64,000 bases of DNA from contig JAJPHF010000113.1 in assembly GCA_021325365.1 (NCBI GenBank), positions 42,920 to 106,919 of the forward strand, written 5' to 3'. Each line of letters opens with the position of its first letter. The first letter of the stretch is position 1. Made by a program: the position numbers and the translations under genes. The notes under the pieces are model-generated. The model worked only from the letters and a program-made list of their open reading frames with translations. It ran no database searches and was not told the origin of the DNA. Of the stretch, positions 14,600 to 55,914 are shown one piece after another. The stretch is from Pseudomonadota bacterium (lineage in GTDB: Bacteria > Chloroflexota > UBA6077 > JAJPHF01).

Positions 14600-14797
14600 C
14601 CCCTGCGCGGCGACGGCCAGCGGCCGGGCCGTGGGCCTACTCTCTGCAGCGAAGAGCAACGGTCCCTTGCCCGGGTCGGCGTTCTGGCTCGCAAGCCGAG
14701 GCTTGCTTACAGCGGCGCGACCGCGGCGGCTTCTCACCGCCTTTCCCGACACCGGACACCTATGCATTTGGCGCGGTGGGTTCGCCCACCGCGGACT
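14600..14797 (-). promoter_or_regulatory. Cobalamin (B12) riboswitch
   Basis: Read on the minus strand, 14757-14728 gives GGTGTCGGGAAAGGCGGTGA followed by GAAGCC, matching the conserved GGGAA and GGTG..A..CC core of cobalamin aptamers. GCGGTCGCGCCGCTGTAAGC follows near 14724-14705, and the B12-box-like AGCCAGAACGCC lies at 14689-14678. A short perfect hairpin (14773-14792) precedes the core at the very 5' end of the transcript. The aptamer leads into the hairpin before cbiB, so excess cobalamin should repress the operon. Outer boundaries are estimates. Confidence 0.88.
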
Positions 14798-14803
14798 ACG
14801 GGC

Positions 14804-14832
14804 AGTATACGATTGAACCGTCCGCACGACAA
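14804..14832 (-). promoter_or_regulatory. Sigma70-type promoter of the cobalamin operon
   Basis: Minus strand -35 TTGTCG (14827-14832), 17-base spacer, -10 TATACT (14804-14809). Transcription would begin near 14797, just before the riboswitch. Confidence 0.75.
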
Positions 14833-43600: not shown

Positions 43601-43640
43601 ACAAGAAGGCCGGCGGCCACGTGGCCGCCGGCCTTCTTGT
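43601..43640 (-). terminator. Intrinsic terminator of the tig-clpP-clpX operon
   Basis: A perfect 20-bp palindrome with no unpaired loop bases (43601-43640), whose outer pairs are ACAAGAAGG and CCTTCTTGT. It lies 17 bases after the clpX stop. The T-rich flank on the minus strand is short (CCTTCTTGT). Confidence 0.8.
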
Positions 43641-43657: not shown

Positions 43658-44938
<1,281 letters not shown>

Positions 44939-44966: not shown

Positions 44967-45599
44967 TTAGCTGCCGTCCGAGGGAGCCGGCTCCCCCATG
45001 CCCGGCGTGCGCCCAATCACTTCGTCGATGATGCCATAATCCCGCGCCTGTTCGGGCGTCAGGAAGAAGTCGCGGTCCGAGTCGCGCGCGATGCGCTCCA
45101 GGGGCTGGCCCGTGTGCAGCGCCATGATGTCCCGCAGCCGCGACTGGACCCGCAGGATCTCACGCGCGCGGATCTCGATGTCCGCGGCCGTCCCCTCGAA
45201 GCCACCCGCCGCCTGGTGAATCATGATCGTCGAATTGGGCAGCGCGTAGCGCTTCCCCTTCGCGCCCGCCAGCAGGAGCACCGCCCCCATGCTCGCGGCC
45301 ATGCCGACGCAGATCGTGCTCACGTCGGGCTTGATGAGCTGCATGGTGTCGTAGATCGACAGGCCCGCCGTGACGCTGCCGCCCGGCGAGTGGATGTACA
45401 GGGAGATGTCCCGCTCCGGGTCCTCGCGGTCGAGATAGAGCAGCTGGGCAACGATCAGGTTGGCGCTGTAATCGTCGACCGCCGAGCCCAGGAAGATGAT
45501 GCGCTCCTTCAGCAGCGAGTAAATGTCGTACGAGCGCTCGCCCCGGTTGGTGGCCTCGACCACCATCGGGACGAGAACCTGGGCGCGGGGATCAAGCAT
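44967..45599 (-). CDS. clpP: ATP-dependent Clp protease proteolytic subunit ClpP
   Basis: ClpP is the serine protease chamber. Catalytic Ser103 is in [13 protein letters not shown], His128 in [11 protein letters not shown] and Asp177 in [42 protein letters not shown] and [19 protein letters not shown] are typical. The length of 210 is normal, with a short N-terminal propeptide before [10 protein letters not shown]. Its ATG overlaps the tig stop by eight bases. Confidence 0.97.
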
Positions 45600-46947
45600 G
45601 GGAGGGCTCCTCGGCGGCCGGCTCGGCCGCCTCAGACGGCGCGGCCGTCGGCTCGGCGGTCTCGCCGTCGGTCGCGCCGGTCGCCATCTCTACCAAGCGC
45701 GCAATCGTCTTGCGCTCGCGAATCGCGGCCTCCACGCGGGCGCGCGTCTCGCGCCGCGCCAGCGCCTCGCGCACGAGACGGCGGGCCTCCGGCCCCTCGC
45801 CGGCCGCCTTCCGGATCTCCGTCTCGACCTCGACCGGATCGACCTCGATCTGCTCCGCCTTCGCGATCTCGTCCAGCACGAACAGCCGGGTCAGCTCGCG
45901 GCGCGCGTCGGCCTCTAGCTCCGCCTCGAATTCGGCCGGCGACTTGCCGGTCAACTGTCGGTATTGTTCTACCGTGATCCCTTGCCTGTCAAGCGAGCTG
46001 GCCAGCTGCTGGCGCAGGCGCTCCGCCTGCTTCTCGATCGCCTGGGGCGGCAGCTCCAGCGTCGCGCCCTCCACGACCTCGTTGATCAGGCCTTCCTGCA
46101 GCTCCTGCCGCGCGTTGGCCTCCGCGCGCGCTTGCAGCTCGCCGCGCACCTCTTGCTTCACCTCGTCCAGCGTGCTGAACGTGCCGACGCTGGAGGCGAA
46201 CGCGTCGTCCAGCTCGGGAAGCTGCTTCTCCTTCACCCAGTGCACCTTCACGGTGAAGGTGGCCTGCTTGCCGGCGATCTCCGCGTCCTCGAAGTCCGCC
46301 GGCACCGCGAGCGTGAACGTCTTCTCGTCGCCCGCCGCCATGCCGACGAGCTGCTCGGCGAAGCCCGGCATCGGCCGGTCGCTCTCGCCGCGCACGACGT
46401 ACTCGACGTCCTGCCGGTCCAGGATGACCTTCTCGTCCACCGCCCCGTGGACGTCCATCGCCACCCGGTCTTCGAGCTGCACGGGGCGCTCGACCGGCAC
46501 CCAGGTGGCGTGCGACTCCCGGAGTTGGTTGATCACGTGGTCCACCTGCTCGTCGGTGACCTCGGGCGTGGTCAGCTCGCGGCGCAGCGCGCGGTAATCG
46601 CCGAGCTGCACCGCCGGCCGCACCGGCACGGTGGCCTTGAACTTCAGCGGCTCGGCCTCGACCACCTCGAAGGAGGCCTCTTCAATCGGATACAGGTTCT
46701 CCTGGTCGATCGCCTCGCGATACACCTCGGGCACCAGGTGCTCGATGGCGTCCTCGAGCAGCGACTCGCGGCCCACCATCCGCTCGACGAGCGGGCGCGG
46801 CGCCTTGCCGGGGCGGAACCCGGGCACTTTTAGCCGGCCGGCCATCCGGCGGTACGCCTGGTCCATCGCCCGCTCGAGCCGCGGGGGCTCGACCTCGACC
46901 TCGAGCACGACCTGGCTCTTCTCGATCTCTTGCGTGCTGACCTTCAC
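45592..46947 (-). CDS. tig: Trigger factor
   Basis: Trigger factor is the ribosome-bound chaperone and prolyl isomerase. The ribosome-docking part ends with [19 protein letters not shown] (canonical GFRxGKxP). The FKBP domain (about 160-240) has [14 protein letters not shown] and [19 protein letters not shown]. The C-terminal arms (about 250-430) are helical, with [15 protein letters not shown] helices replaced by [26 protein letters not shown]. The length of 451 is normal. The acidic tail ([14 protein letters not shown]) is an unusually long Ala/Glu extension. GTG 46947 is the start. It leads the tig-clpP-clpX operon. Confidence 0.96.
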
Positions 46948-47783: not shown

Positions 47784-47834
47784 CCAGGGATAGTGTGTAG
47801 GTTTGGCTTCGCCAAACCTACACACTATCCCTGG
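47784..47834. terminator. Bidirectional terminator, perfect 23-bp hairpin
   Basis: Positions 47784-47806 and 47812-47834 pair perfectly around a five-base CTTCG loop. It separates two convergent genes (stops 28 and 9 bases away). There is no U-run; the unusual stem length suggests strong termination or 3' processing for both mRNAs. Confidence 0.7.
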
Positions 47835-47843
47835 GACGGCAGC

Positions 47844-48848
47844 TTAGTACTCGTCGAACATGCGCTGGATCTCGTCCGGGTCGCGCGTGCGGGTGAGCGC
47901 GAGCGCCAGTAGCAGCGCGGCCTTCTGCGGGTTGAGGTTGTCGGCCGCCACCATGCCGGGCTCCTGCCAGTTGTCGTCGCGGACCACGCGCCCCTCCCCA
48001 ACGCGCGCGCTCCGAACCACGGCTACGCCGTCGCGAACCAGCGCCGCCAGCGCCTCGCGGTACGGGCCGGTCGACCCCGCCCCGCTGCCCGCGATCACGA
48101 GGCCGCGGGCGCCCAGCTCGACTGCCGCCCGCGCCAGCTCGGGCCGCGCCGCCGCGTGGACATAGAGCACGTCGACCGCCGGCAGCTCCTCGACGCCGCG
48201 CAGGTCGAACTCGCTGGCCGCGGTGTGGCGGCGGGTGGGCGCGCGGTAGAACACGATGCGGTCGGCATCGGCGTAGCCCAACACCCCCAGGTCGCGGCTG
48301 CGGAAGGTCTGCAGGCGGTAGGTGTGCGTCTTCGTTACGTCGCGCGCCGCGTTGATCTCATCGTTGGTCACGACGAGGACGCCTTGGCCCCGCGCCACCG
48401 GCGCCCCCGCGACGCGGATGGCGTTCAGCAAGTTGAGCGCGCCGTCGCTGCTCAGCGCGGTGAACGGCCGTTGCGCGCCCGTCACGACGACCGGCTTGTC
48501 GGTGTGAACGGTGAGGTTCAGGAAATACGCGGTCTCCTCGATGCTGTTGGTGCCCTGCACGAACACCAGCCCGTCGACCTCCGGCTCCTGTAGCGCCGCC
48601 TCGACGTGCAGCGCCAGCGCCTTCAGGTTCGCGGGCGTCGCCATCTCGAAGGGGTTGCCGGGGTCGACCTCCACGCGCGCCACCCGCCCGATCTCGGGCA
48701 CCGCTTCCAGCAGCTGCTCGCCCGTCAGCCGCGGCCGGCCGCTGAGCAGCTCGTTGTATCGCAGCAGGTCCAGCCGGTCCTTCCCCTGGCTATGCAGCGT
48801 GCCCGGCCCGATCAGCAGACGCACGCGCGGTAGGCTGTCCCTCGCCAT
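47844..48848 (-). CDS. Asparaginase/glutaminase family protein with substituted active-site Asp
   Basis: A 334-residue protein of the bacterial L-asparaginase family. The first catalytic loop reads LLIGPGTLHSQG, with Thr17 equivalent to the nucleophile Thr of GGTIA. The second is VFVQGTNSIEETAYFL, with Thr100 in place but Asn101 where the family has Asp (canonical HGTDTMEETA), and Gln for His before it. VVTNDEINAARDVTKTHTYR supplies the catalytic Lys173. VTGAQRPFTALSSDGALNL and IAGSGAGSTG are typical. The Asp-to-Asn change may alter activity or substrate. ATG at 48848 follows GGAGAG. It is the last gene of an operon with an amidohydrolase and two transporters. Confidence 0.85.
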   Translation of the reverse strand: MARDSLPRVRLLIGPGTLHSQGKDRLDLLRYNELLSGRPRLTGEQLLEAVPEIGRVARVEVDPGNPFEMATPANLKALALHVEAALQEPEVDGLVFVQGTNSIEETAYFLNLTVHTDKPVVVTGAQRPFTALSSDGALNLLNAIRVAGAPVARGQGVLVVTNDEINAARDVTKTHTYRLQTFRSRDLGVLGYADADRIVFYRAPTRRHTAASEFDLRGVEELPAVDVLYVHAAARPELARAAVELGARGLVIAGSGAGSTGPYREALAALVRDGVAVVRSARVGEGRVVRDDNWQEPGMVAADNLNPQKAALLLALALTRTRDPDEIQRMFDEY

Positions 48849-52933: not shown

Positions 52934-54658
52934 CTACGGCGCGACGCCGACAGCCTCCTCTGCCGCCGCCTTGAGTCGTGCGACGCCCAGGCGGTGACAG
53001 AAATCTCCGAACCCCTCGCCGCTCCTGCGCTCCGCCCGAAACAGCGCGAACAGCGGACGCAGCCGCTCCGGCAGCTCCTCGACCGGCACCAGGTCCGCGT
53101 AGAGCTGGTTCAGCCGCGAGCCCTCGAAGTCGCCCCCCAGGTAGATCTGGTACTTGCCGGGGCTGCGGCCGACAAAGCCGATGTCCCCCAGATACGGCCG
53201 CGCACAGCCGTTGGGACAGCCCGTCATGCGGATGCTCAGGCGCTCGTCGGCGAGCCCCAGGTCGCGCAGCACCCCGTCGATCTGACGCACCACGCCCGGC
53301 AGCGCGCGCTCGGACTCCGCCACCGCCAGGCCGCAAGTCGGCAGCGCGGGACAGGCCATCGCGTGGCGCAGCGCCCGCGGTACCTCCTCCACTAGCAGCA
53401 CGCCGTGCGCGCGCAGCAGCCCCTCGATCGCCGCCCGCTCGTCGGCGGGCAGGTCGCCGAAGATGGCGTTCTGGTGGGCGGTCAGCCAGATCGCCGGCTG
53501 GTAGCGCTCCACCAGCGCGCGCAGCGCCGTCTTGGTCCGCCGGCCGTCCGCGTCCTGGATGCGCCCGTTCTCGATCCACACGCCCAGGTAGGCGCGGCCG
53601 TCGGGCTGCTCGTGCCAGCCCAGATGGTCCCCCGTGTGCTGCCAGCGCAGGGGCCGGGGTGGCGCGAGCCGGGCGCCCAGGCGCCGCTCCATCTCCTCGC
53701 GGAAGCGGTCCAGCCCCCAGGCGTCGAGCAGGTACTTCATGCGCGCGTGGCGGCGATCGGCGCGGTTCCCCGCGTCGCGCTGGATGCGGATGATCGTCAG
53801 GAACGTGTCCAGCAGCGCGTCCGGCTCCACGAAGCAGATCGGGCTGGCGGCGCGCGGATACGTCGAGGTCACGTTGTGGGTCATCCCCATGCTGCCGCCG
53901 ACCAGCACCGTGAAGCCCGCCAGCTGGCCGCCGTCGAGATGCGCCACCATGCCGATGTCCTGGGCGTACACGTCGATGCAGTTGTCGCCCTCGACCACCA
54001 GCCCCGACTTGAACTTGCGGGGCAGGTAGGTCGGGCCGTACAGCGGCTCCTCGTCGGGCTGCTGCGTCGAGACCACCTTCTCGTGGTCCAGCCAGATCTC
54101 GTGATAGGCGCGTGTCCGCGGCAGCGTCTGGTCGCTGAGATAGCGCGCCCAGCGCTGCACCGCCGCGGCCGTTGCGGAGTCCGGCGCCGGGCAGGCCACC
54201 AGGTTGCGCTCGACGTCGCCGCACGCGCCCAGCGTCGTGATCAGGCTCTCGTTGATGCCGCGAATCGTCCGCTGCAGGTCGCGCTTGCCAACGTAGTGCA
54301 GCTGGAAACACTGGCGCGTGGTGACCCGCAGCGTGTCGTTGCCGTACCGCGTCGCCAGCTCGTCGAAGCGCAGGTACTGGTCGGCGGTGAGCCGGCCGCC
54401 GGGAATCTTCGCGCGGACCATCATGATCCACGCCTTGTCGCCCCCGGCTTGGCGCGCGGCGGCGCGGGCATCGCGGTCGTCCTGCTGATAGACGCCGTGG
54501 AACTTCAACAGCTGGTACTCGTCGTGCGAGAAGTGCGACGCATCGCTTGCCAGCGTCGCCGGGATCGTGCCGCGCAGGTAGTCGCTCTGCTCCTTCAGGA
54601 CCTCGACGCCCGACCGCTTGGGGGGCACCGTACCGTTCCGCGCCGCGTCGAGAGTCAT
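52934..54658 (-). CDS. Sulfite reductase hemoprotein (siroheme, 4Fe-4S), CysI/Sir type
   Basis: The enzyme reduces sulfite to sulfide with six electrons. The 574-residue chain has two ferredoxin-like nitrite/sulfite-reductase halves (DKAWIMMVRAKIPGGRLTADQY and GRAYLGVWIENGRIQD) and two catalytic domains. The 4Fe-4S/siroheme cysteines are Cys436 and Cys442 (CPALPTCGLAVAESERALP) and Cys481 and Cys485 (TGCPNGCARPYLGDIG). LRVTTRQCFQLHYVGK and GDVERNLVACPAP are typical. Ferredoxin-nitrite reductases share much of this, but the CPNGC and PTCGLA spacing and a cysteine-leader upstream favour sulfite. The ATG at 54658 follows GGAGG. No flavoprotein CysJ is near. Confidence 0.9.
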   Translation of the reverse strand: MTLDAARNGTVPPKRSGVEVLKEQSDYLRGTIPATLASDASHFSHDEYQLLKFHGVYQQDDRDARAAARQAGGDKAWIMMVRAKIPGGRLTADQYLRFDELATRYGNDTLRVTTRQCFQLHYVGKRDLQRTIRGINESLITTLGACGDVERNLVACPAPDSATAAAVQRWARYLSDQTLPRTRAYHEIWLDHEKVVSTQQPDEEPLYGPTYLPRKFKSGLVVEGDNCIDVYAQDIGMVAHLDGGQLAGFTVLVGGSMGMTHNVTSTYPRAASPICFVEPDALLDTFLTIIRIQRDAGNRADRRHARMKYLLDAWGLDRFREEMERRLGARLAPPRPLRWQHTGDHLGWHEQPDGRAYLGVWIENGRIQDADGRRTKTALRALVERYQPAIWLTAHQNAIFGDLPADERAAIEGLLRAHGVLLVEEVPRALRHAMACPALPTCGLAVAESERALPGVVRQIDGVLRDLGLADERLSIRMTGCPNGCARPYLGDIGFVGRSPGKYQIYLGGDFEGSRLNQLYADLVPVEELPERLRPLFALFRAERRSGEGFGDFCHRLGVARLKAAAEEAVGVAP

Positions 54659-54924
54659 CGCGCCTCCTCTGGCTGACCTGCCGGCAGTTAGTGCGGCCGT
54701 GGGCTCAGCCGCCGTTCGCCGCGCCTGCCGCCGGCCCGCTCGTGCCGCTGCCGGTCTCTCGGATCATCGGTGTGGCTAGTCTGCATGCACGCGTCCGCGC
54801 CGCCGAGGGAAATCGATGCCGTGGAGCGATCGGCGGGCAGCCCGCGGACAGCACACCCGCGCCACGTAGCCCGAGGTCGCGCGGGCGCGAGCTAGCCGAG
54901 CAGCCCGCCGCACCAATCGGGGGG

Positions 54925-54950
54925 AGCCCCCGCCGGGCTGGGCGGGGGCT
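54925..54950 (-). promoter_or_regulatory. Hairpin just after the leader-peptide stop: candidate attenuator
   Basis: A 10-bp stem (54925-54934 with 54941-54950) with a six-base loop. It overlaps the leader stop codon by two bases and starts immediately where a ribosome would finish. There is no U-run, so it is not a classic terminator. Confidence 0.55.
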
Positions 54951-55020
54951 AGCGACAGAAGCGGCCGCGGCCGACCTGCGGCCAGTAGTTGATGATGTAG
55001 CTCGTCAATCTCGGATACAT
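54949..55020 (-). CDS. 23-residue leader peptide ending Phe-Cys-Arg, leaderless
   Basis: An ATG at 55020 lies seven bases after the -10 element TATACT, so transcription should begin at or next to it: the mRNA is effectively leaderless. The peptide begins MYPRLTSYIINYWPQVG and ends GRGRFCR before TAG. It is about 290 bases upstream of the sulfite reductase start. Short peptides ending in Cys-Arg are known upstream of sulfur-assimilation genes in Actinobacteria, where Cys codons sense cysteine charging. This one fits by position and ending; there is no close sequence match I can cite. Its coding nature needs proof. Confidence 0.6.
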   Translation of the reverse strand: MYPRLTSYIINYWPQVGRGRFCR

Positions 55021-55027
55021 CGCGGGC

Positions 55028-55057
55028 AGTATAGAACTATTCCGTTCTATCCGTCAA
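55028..55057 (-). promoter_or_regulatory. Promoter with embedded operator for sulfite reductase leader
   Basis: Minus strand -35 TTGACG (55052-55057), 18-base spacer, -10 TATACT (55028-55033). An inverted repeat ATAGAAC-N6-GTTCTAT (55031-55050) covers the spacer and part of the -10, a classic place for a repressor to block polymerase. Confidence 0.7.
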
Positions 55058-55185: not shown

Positions 55186-55914
55186 ATGAGCGCAACGCCG
55201 CCGCGCATCGGCACGTCCGGCTGGAACTACCAGCACTGGCGCGGCATCTTCTACCCGCGCGACCTGCCCCCGGCGCGCTGGCTCGCCTACTACGTGGAGC
55301 GCTTCGATACGGTCGAGATCAATTACTCGTTCTACCGCCTGCCGTCGCGCGAGAGCTTCGCCGCCTGGGCCGCCCAGGCGCCCGCCGATTTCCTGTTCGC
55401 CGTGAAGGGGAACCGCTTCATCACCCATCTGAAGCGCCTGCGCGACCCGGCAGAGCCGGTCGGCCGCTTCTTCGAGCGCGCCAGCGCCCTCGGCCCGACG
55501 CTCGGCCCCGTCCTCTGGCAGCTGCCACCGCAGTTCCACCGCGACGTCGACCGCCTTGCCACCTTCTTGGCAGCGCTGCCACCTGGGTGCCAACACGCTT
55601 TCGAGTTTCGTCACGACTCGTGGTTCGTGCAGCCGGTCTACGACCTCCTGGCCGCCCACGATGCCGCGCTGTGCCTCGCCGATCGGGCCGGCGGCACGTC
55701 GCCCCTGGAGATCACGGCCACGTGGACGTACGTCCGCTTCCACGGTGGCTCGGGGGAGGGCTGGGCGTACACCGATCGCCAGCTCGGCGCCTGGGCCGAG
55801 CGGCTCGCGGCCTACCGCGCGCGGGACCTGGCCATCTACGCCTACTTCAACAACGATCCTCACGGACACGCCATCAACGACGCGCGGCGGCTGCGTGCCC
55901 TACTCGCTGGCTAG
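55186..55914 (+). CDS. DUF72 family protein (YecE)
   Basis: A 242-residue protein matching DUF72 throughout: RIGTSGWNYQHWRGIFYPRDLP at the start, FDTVEINYSFYRLPSRESFAAWA, FLFAVKGNRFITHLKRL, LGPVLWQLPPQFHRDVDRLATFLAALP, HAFEFRHDSWFV, YVRFHGGSGEGWAYTDRQL and IYAYFNNDPHGHAINDARRL. The family has a TIM-barrel fold related to sugar-phosphate isomerases/endonuclease IV; the reaction is unknown. It is divergent from the sulfite reductase leader. The ATG at 55186 follows GAGAGGGGG. Confidence 0.93.
   Translation: MSATPPRIGTSGWNYQHWRGIFYPRDLPPARWLAYYVERFDTVEINYSFYRLPSRESFAAWAAQAPADFLFAVKGNRFITHLKRLRDPAEPVGRFFERASALGPTLGPVLWQLPPQFHRDVDRLATFLAALPPGCQHAFEFRHDSWFVQPVYDLLAAHDAALCLADRAGGTSPLEITATWTYVRFHGGSGEGWAYTDRQLGAWAERLAAYRARDLAIYAYFNNDPHGHAINDARRLRALLAG

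Follow-up and report, generated by a model that had tools for sequence, protein, structure and literature searches.

The closest described counterparts of the element reported here are the polycysteine short ORFs of mycobacteria. Leaderless is their published state (Canestrari et al. 2020, Mol Microbiol, as cited in PMC9094748, PMC9031893 and PMC13236596), and two of these sources describe a cysteine-dependent attenuation that regulates translation of the downstream genes (PMC9031893, PMC13236596). In Streptomyces lividans (PMC8079986), TAnnnT serves as the -10 motif, and a leaderless start is found in several of the amino-acid leaders; among these, TrpL2 combines a leaderless start with a single regulatory codon and with hairpins lacking a uridine run. 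Cys-sensing leaders are known from Actinobacteria, the leaderless start being part of the published picture. For Chloroflexota, no report of Cys leaders was found in a search of the open literature. Here we describe a candidate leader of this type in a 64-kb stretch of DNA from a Chloroflexota bacterium, which is referred to as a whole as the window. The initial annotation of this DNA had deemed a leaderless start unusual in such a setting; that opinion does not agree with what is published for the mycobacterial Cys leaders and for several Streptomyces leaders, and a leaderless start is normal for Cys leaders of this kind.

The locus is read from the minus strand of the window. Its sigma-70-type promoter (55028..55057) consists of the -35 sequence TTGACG (55057-55052), an 18-nt spacer and the -10 sequence TATACT (55033-55028), with 10 of 12 matches to the consensus, and an ATG follows 7 nt further on, at 55020. 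Because this is the usual spacing from a -10 sequence, the transcript is predicted to start at the ATG or one base before it. The ATG opens a short ORF of 23 codons (54949..55020), MYPRLTSYIINYWPQVGRGRFCR, whose 3' end on inspection of the sequence reads TTC TGT CGC TAG; its single Cys codon, TGT, occupies 54957-54955 and its stop codon 54951-54949. We treat this ORF as a candidate leaderless Cys-sensing leader peptide on the basis of its GC3 (86%), the rank of its 3' end (see below) and its distance from the -10. The A of the stop codon is also the first base of a hairpin with a perfect 10-bp GC stem, AGCCCCCGCC-CAGCCC-GGCGGGGGCT (54950-54925), which is followed by CCCCCC in place of a U-run and represents the candidate attenuator. 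Inspection by eye suggested a possible alternative pairing (54901..54940) between CAGCCCG (54940-54934) and CGGGCTG (54907-54901), which would be mutually exclusive with the 10-bp hairpin. The presumed regulated gene, for an assimilatory sulfite reductase hemoprotein (52934..54658), scores 738.8 bits against NCBIfam NF010029 (cut-off 457); it has a Shine-Dalgarno sequence, AGGAGG, at 54663..54668, and 290 nt separate the leader stop from its ATG at 54658. On the other side, the regulatory region is bordered by a divergent DUF72 gene on the plus strand (55186..55914; PF01904, E 1.9e-73). A promoter with its start point on or beside an ATG, a 23-codon peptide ending Phe-Cys-Arg before TAG, a 10-bp hairpin at the stop and a sulfite reductase 290 bases away had all been noted in the initial annotation, and each of them was recovered here, the hairpin reaching 24 nt beyond the extent then given to the element.

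No T-box, SAM or other Rfam element was detected in the leader at gathering scores; relaxing the limit to E up to 5 yielded four unrelated chance-level matches, the best with E 0.2. Elsewhere in the window, a cobalamin riboswitch (RF00174, 44.2 bits) lies at 14657-14809 on the minus strand, surrounded by what we take to be cobalamin genes. Between leader and sulfite reductase, a GTG-started frame (54854-54777, minus strand) with Val-Cys-Cys as first residues was seen by eye; it is probably there by chance.

Taken together, we consider it somewhat more probable than its negation that the element is a leaderless, cysteine-responsive leader peptide with a single Cys codon, which would attenuate expression of sulfite reductase. 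We weighed this reading against the prospect that a real promoter merely happens to be followed by a fortuitous ATG and stop and by one of several GC-rich hairpins. Promoter-like sites with at least 9 of 12 matches number seven on both strands of the 64-kb window, and just one of them, the leader promoter, has an ATG or GTG located 6-8 nt after the -10. Looser limits gave three promoter-ORF combinations in the window (ORFs of 6-50 codons), among which a Cys in the last three residues is found only in the leader ORF. The GC content of the short ORF by codon position is 41/55/86% (Fisher p = 0.002); by this measure it occupies only rank 58 among the 197 window ORFs that open with ATG and have 15-40 codons, and codon-position composition alone is not decisive. 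Perfect stems of at least 10 bp with loops of 3-8 nt were counted 21 times in the window versus 0, 2, 0, 2 and 3 times in five block shuffles; these raw counts correspond to ten distinct places, so that the leader hairpin is unusual, not unique. Taken as a whole, the 383-nt leader folds no more stably than its shuffles (z = 0.09). The ten stems, the ordinary leader structure, the codon-position rank and the absence of the ORF from the nearest relatives compared (L081 and L082, below) are all in keeping with accident. The leaderless spacing, unique in the window, and a 3' end that ranks first of 127,970 positions (below) speak against it, and we judge the accidental explanation improbable, the least probable of those considered here.

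The hairpin scan brought up two further structures. A perfect 24-bp inverted repeat, closed by a 3-base loop and lacking a U-run, is found at 47784-47834, just downstream of a minus-strand gene ending at 47844. An 18-bp hairpin whose outer stem is A-rich on one side and T-rich on the other (43601-43640) directly follows a clpX-like minus-strand gene (ending at 43658) and is possibly its terminator.

Sulfite reductase loci from other genomes carry leaders to which the window ORF can be compared. In a set of 100 non-redundant loci from all phyla, 17 have an upstream leader of the form LTRRR...C (L009-L016, L021, L023, L054, L097, L099, L101, L104, L105 and L108). Their labels include seven Chloroflexi, three Dormibacteraeota and one Bacillota (L021), the other six having come from the same phylum search, and the 17 are not independent of one another. 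The peptides end in ...LTRRRAIDYVRCASCFCS or in variants of it, ...LTRRRALDFGRLTRCACR being one example. Two or more Cys within the last eight residues of a short ORF were seen in 28 of the 100 loci, namely the 17 just mentioned, four from Anaerolineae and seven others (shuffle fractions 0 to 0.39). With start codons picked by us within 72-96 nt of the stop, a TANNNT sequence ends 7-12 nt before the start in 17/17 LTRRR leaders, the gap in the window being 7; the motif was scored 0 times at 12 spaced control offsets and in 4/17 at the adjoining offset of 0-6 nt. A Shine-Dalgarno core precedes none of the 17 starts. This combination of regular TANNNT spacing with missing Shine-Dalgarno cores leads us to predict leaderless, or nearly leaderless, initiation as the rule for LTRRR leaders. 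The last Cys codon is TGT in all 17 and in the window leader; TGT accounts for 16 of the 71 Cys codons in 16 window genes.

Relationship of the LTRRR leaders to catalogued families was assessed for three of them: two match both NF042933 and NF042934 at E values of 2e-5 to 5e-3, and the third matches NF042933 only, at E 0.47. All three fall below the NF042933 cut-off of 45 bits (24, 21 and 10.2 bits), and the best NF042934 score among the three, 22.6 bits, lies under the cut-off of 27. Of 400 Chloroflexota genomes searched with a profile made from 8 of the 17 leaders, 26 gave matches at E up to 0.01. In 16 of these the E value was 1e-4 or less; the weaker matches may be noise. Among 30 loci, a script read a leader-like peptide in 19, directly preceding sulfite reductase in 12. 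The peptide of L176 precedes what is presumably a permease-like gene, itself upstream of sulfite reductase, those of L182, L184, L195 and L196, which are LTRRR...C-like, stand before a gene that we take to be carbonic-anhydrase-like, and those of L183 and L194 precede a gene without an assigned name. One LTRRR leader type may thus serve several genes in Chloroflexota. As for mode of action, a ribosome modelled at the last Cys codon eases opening of the Shine-Dalgarno in 11/16 LTRRR loci, a count made without shuffle control and with other ribosome positions easing some as well. A terminator-like hairpin occurs between leader and gene in 7/17 loci, where mononucleotide shuffles (1-27% per locus) would predict about 2, an excess that is suggestive only. 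The relatives point to two possible routes: in one, the region of the Cys codons would mask the Shine-Dalgarno; the other is termination.

The 3' end of the window ORF, CTTCTGTCGCTAGCC, differs by one base from CTTCTGTAGCTAGCC, with which 8/17 LTRRR leaders end. A weight matrix covering the last three codons, the stop and the next three bases, trained on the 17 relatives (6 distinct segments) with the window left out, scored the window site higher than any other of the 127,970 positions of the two strands; the matrix was built after the likeness had been noticed, the site itself having been fixed beforehand by the initial annotation. When longer stretches were used the rank of the site changed from 1 (four codons) to 4 (six codons), 20 (ten codons) and 1846 (18-codon core). 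The window peptide lacks an LTRRR core with a D at a set distance after it; it has LTSYIINY, the alignment places no core in it, and its N-terminal part bears no likeness to the LTRRR leaders. Neither NF042933 (cut-off 45 bits) nor NF042934 (cut-off 27 bits) gave any match to it at E up to 10. With leaderless Cys attenuators in general the window leader shares a -10 (TATACT, gap 7) at a predicted leaderless spacing without a Shine-Dalgarno, and a short ORF that closes with a Cys codon near its stop and precedes a cysteine-pathway gene. Since 3' end and layout match and the N-terminus and family models do not, the window leader is best described, from its sequence, as a divergent or convergent member of the group in layout, not by profile. 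The earlier proposal of a leaderless, Cys-ended leader before sulfite reductase is strengthened by the like -10-to-start layout of all 17 relatives and by the first rank of the window 3' end.

Searches within the class itself returned little. The motif TTCTGTMGCTAGCC was absent from 29/29 class genomes, its reversed control giving one match; the motif is therefore rare, and by the same token the class shows no other trace of such a leader. Possible homologues of the window peptide amounted to seven weak matches in 5/29 genomes, none of which ends at a stop as the window peptide does, and were rejected. NF042934 matches all 29 genomes at E up to 10 and none above cut-off, and 10/14 control genomes behave likewise, so that these matches are noise. 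A Thermogemmatispora peptide, VRLLTNSALYRMLINSCYS, was also dismissed as a leader: sister loci have Phe or Tyr where it has Cys, and its occurrence is thus ascribed to chance.

Neighbouring genes were used to place the window among its relatives. The product of 43658-44938, presumably ClpX, was closest to Thermogemmatispora in the seven genomes tried (75% over nearly the whole length). That of 45592-46947, which we take to be trigger factor, is 67% identical to its counterpart in G080, the best of 400 Chloroflexota genomes (234 of which match at E up to 1e-60). G080, G191 and G045 belong to one order, and the last two carry the nearest sulfite reductases among the genomes compared (66 and 65%, respectively); they are also the only ones of the 29 class genomes with a sulfite reductase match at E up to 1e-100. 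Four near full-length sulfite reductases in metagenome data (P0001-P0004) are 79-87% identical to that of the window; no closer relative was found among viral contigs. At the two nearest loci, L081 and L082, no comparable Cys-ended leader was found (0/2), and a promoter-like sequence lies close to sulfite reductase. In L081, a frame of 40 codons that ends ...ACPPL and lies 314 nt upstream was rejected as a leader; it looks like part of a neighbouring gene. The initial annotation had proposed to look for short peptides ending in CR at the sulfite reductase loci of relatives; 17/100 loci have LTRRR...C leaders, and the two nearest (65-66%) have no comparable peptide. In the roughly 120 nt that precede the matched part of sulfite reductase, both L081 and L082 display, by eye, an inverted repeat, ATTCT..ACTA...TAGTCAAGAAT, which is a candidate operator.

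The window promoter, too, contains a palindrome. ATAGAAC-GGAATA-GTTCTAT (55031..55050) has 7-bp perfect arms separated by a 6-bp loop, and its 20 bp run from within the promoter spacer to the third base of the -10; it is a putative operator. We thus envisaged that a repressor bound there controls sulfite reductase, the message having simply a long 5' UTR in which the short ORF is a by-product. The arms extend over the spacer and just into the -10, a position that agrees with such control, as do the inverted repeats near the promoters of L081 and L082, loci without a Cys leader. Upstream of the leader in L009, L010, L012 and L014, a further candidate operator, TGCGA-N5-TCGCA, was noticed by eye; its presence in leader-bearing loci implies that repressor and attenuator may coexist. 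The inverted repeats are unlike between loci, however, and the palindrome has no identified regulator. A repressor alone does not account for the sole leaderless-spaced start codon opening a Cys-ended ORF with an end like those of the relatives. Repression as the full explanation is rather unlikely in our estimation, though the strongest of the competing accounts.

Returning to the leader-peptide reading, the transcript start, translation, the cysteine response and the action of the hairpin on transcription are all steps that we infer, and they may be arranged as follows. Transcription would begin from or beside the ATG at 55020, and ribosomes would therefore load on a bare 5' end. With ample Cys-tRNA, the ribosome would pass the sole UGU (54957), terminate at the UAG and leave; the 10-bp hairpin could then fold, with less read-through into sulfite reductase. 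With scarce Cys-tRNA, the ribosome would wait at the UGU and cover the first five bases of the 5' arm of the hairpin (54950-54946), given a footprint of about 12 nt beyond the start of the A-site. Stalling would weaken the hairpin, favour the pairing of 54940-54934 with 54907-54901 and result in more sulfite reductase message. A ribosome at the stop codon would cover the whole 5' arm, a departed one none of it. The hairpin would exert its effect on transcription, whether by pausing, through Rho or by termination without a U-run, and not on the distant Shine-Dalgarno. Masking of the latter was modelled and discarded: opening it costs 3.3 kcal/mol in the free RNA, against 3.6 when a ribosome sits at the Cys codon and 4.3 when one sits at the stop. 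This route thus fails in the window, which leaves the hairpin that begins within the stop codon. The 10-bp hairpin of the initial annotation is present and abuts the stop, but its role as a terminator finds no support in the bases that follow, which form no U-run.

Two further features count against attenuation: a ribosome at the UGU leaves five base pairs of the hairpin possible, and a single Cys codon is a weak sensor. The latter, like the absence of a U-run, would be expected if the short ORF were translated without sensing cysteine, serving to protect or expose the message (through polarity, Rho or stability) and carrying its final Cys by chance. Set against this are the TGT and its surroundings, which are the best match in the window to the leader ends of the 17 relatives, and the fact that the downstream gene belongs to the cysteine pathway; a translated ORF with no sensing function appears improbable to us, marginally less so than a wholly accidental arrangement. 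In favour of the attenuator, the sole leaderless-spaced promoter site opens a Cys-ended peptide before a cysteine-pathway gene.

A different arrangement was observed in Anaerolineae. L053 (approximately 2175-2471), L057, L061 and L072 have two consecutive polyCys ORFs upstream of sulfite reductase. In L053, each ORF is followed by a terminator-like hairpin (two found by scan, 0.3 expected); the hairpins of L057, L061 and L072 were identified by eye from the alignment. L026 (approximately 2217-2480) contains an unlike pair of ORFs on the same plan, with one hairpin found by scan (0.8 expected) and the other by eye. The tandem ORFs of L053 are a candidate tandem Cys attenuator. As the tandem plan is that of a textbook attenuator, Chloroflexota very likely use Cys leaders before sulfite reductase, judging from these sequences. 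More tentatively, and with doubts that outweigh our confidence, one may picture cysteine synthesis as being under leader-peptide attenuation across several classes of Chloroflexota, with unlike peptides: leaderless LTRRR leaders (Dormibacterota-like groups), tandem polyCys ORFs with terminators (Anaerolineae) and the leaderless single-Cys leader of the window, whose stop-codon hairpin would allow one ribosome position both to read the Cys codon and to decide the fate of the hairpin.

A like layout before sulfite reductase in Chloroflexota would imply either wide inheritance or repeated invention. The loci provide a natural set of variants, with one, two, three or tandem Cys tracts, and with U-run hairpins, possible masking of the Shine-Dalgarno or a hairpin abutting the stop. 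With such a set one could ask what minimum of Cys codons is enough and in what way a stalled leaderless ribosome affects the RNA. Compared with the putative leader peptide family NF042934 (cis_reg_atten), the actinobacterial members of which presumably end in CR, the window peptide has the same Cys-Arg end, a similar length, a single Cys and a sulfur gene downstream, yet it gives no match to the model at E up to 10. With the Chloroflexota/Dormibacterota LTRRR leaders it shares the gene, the leaderless spacing and TGT as last Cys codon. Those leaders, in contrast, have two or three Cys near the end and an LTRRR core; between their stop and the matched part of the gene there are 90-152 nt (245 in L021), versus 290 nt in the window, and the easing of the Shine-Dalgarno by a ribosome at the last Cys, modelled in 11/16 of them, does not occur here. 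Like TrpL2 of S. lividans (PMC8079986), the window leader is, by prediction, leaderless, with a single regulatory codon and a hairpin without a uridine run, whereas TrpL2 concerns tryptophan, trpS and Actinobacteria. The mycobacterial Cys ORFs (NF042933, Ms5788A family) resemble it in being leaderless short ORFs with Cys codons, in their association with cysteine-pathway genes and in a presumed stalling at low Cys. They differ from it in that the window peptide has one Cys, no LTRRR core and no match to the model, and in that the mycobacterial ORFs are said to act on translation (PMC9031893, PMC13236596), whereas the Shine-Dalgarno of the window gene, 290 nt off, is unaffected in our model. 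In conclusion, the window leader looks like an outlying variant of the Cys-sensing switch known from Actinobacteria.
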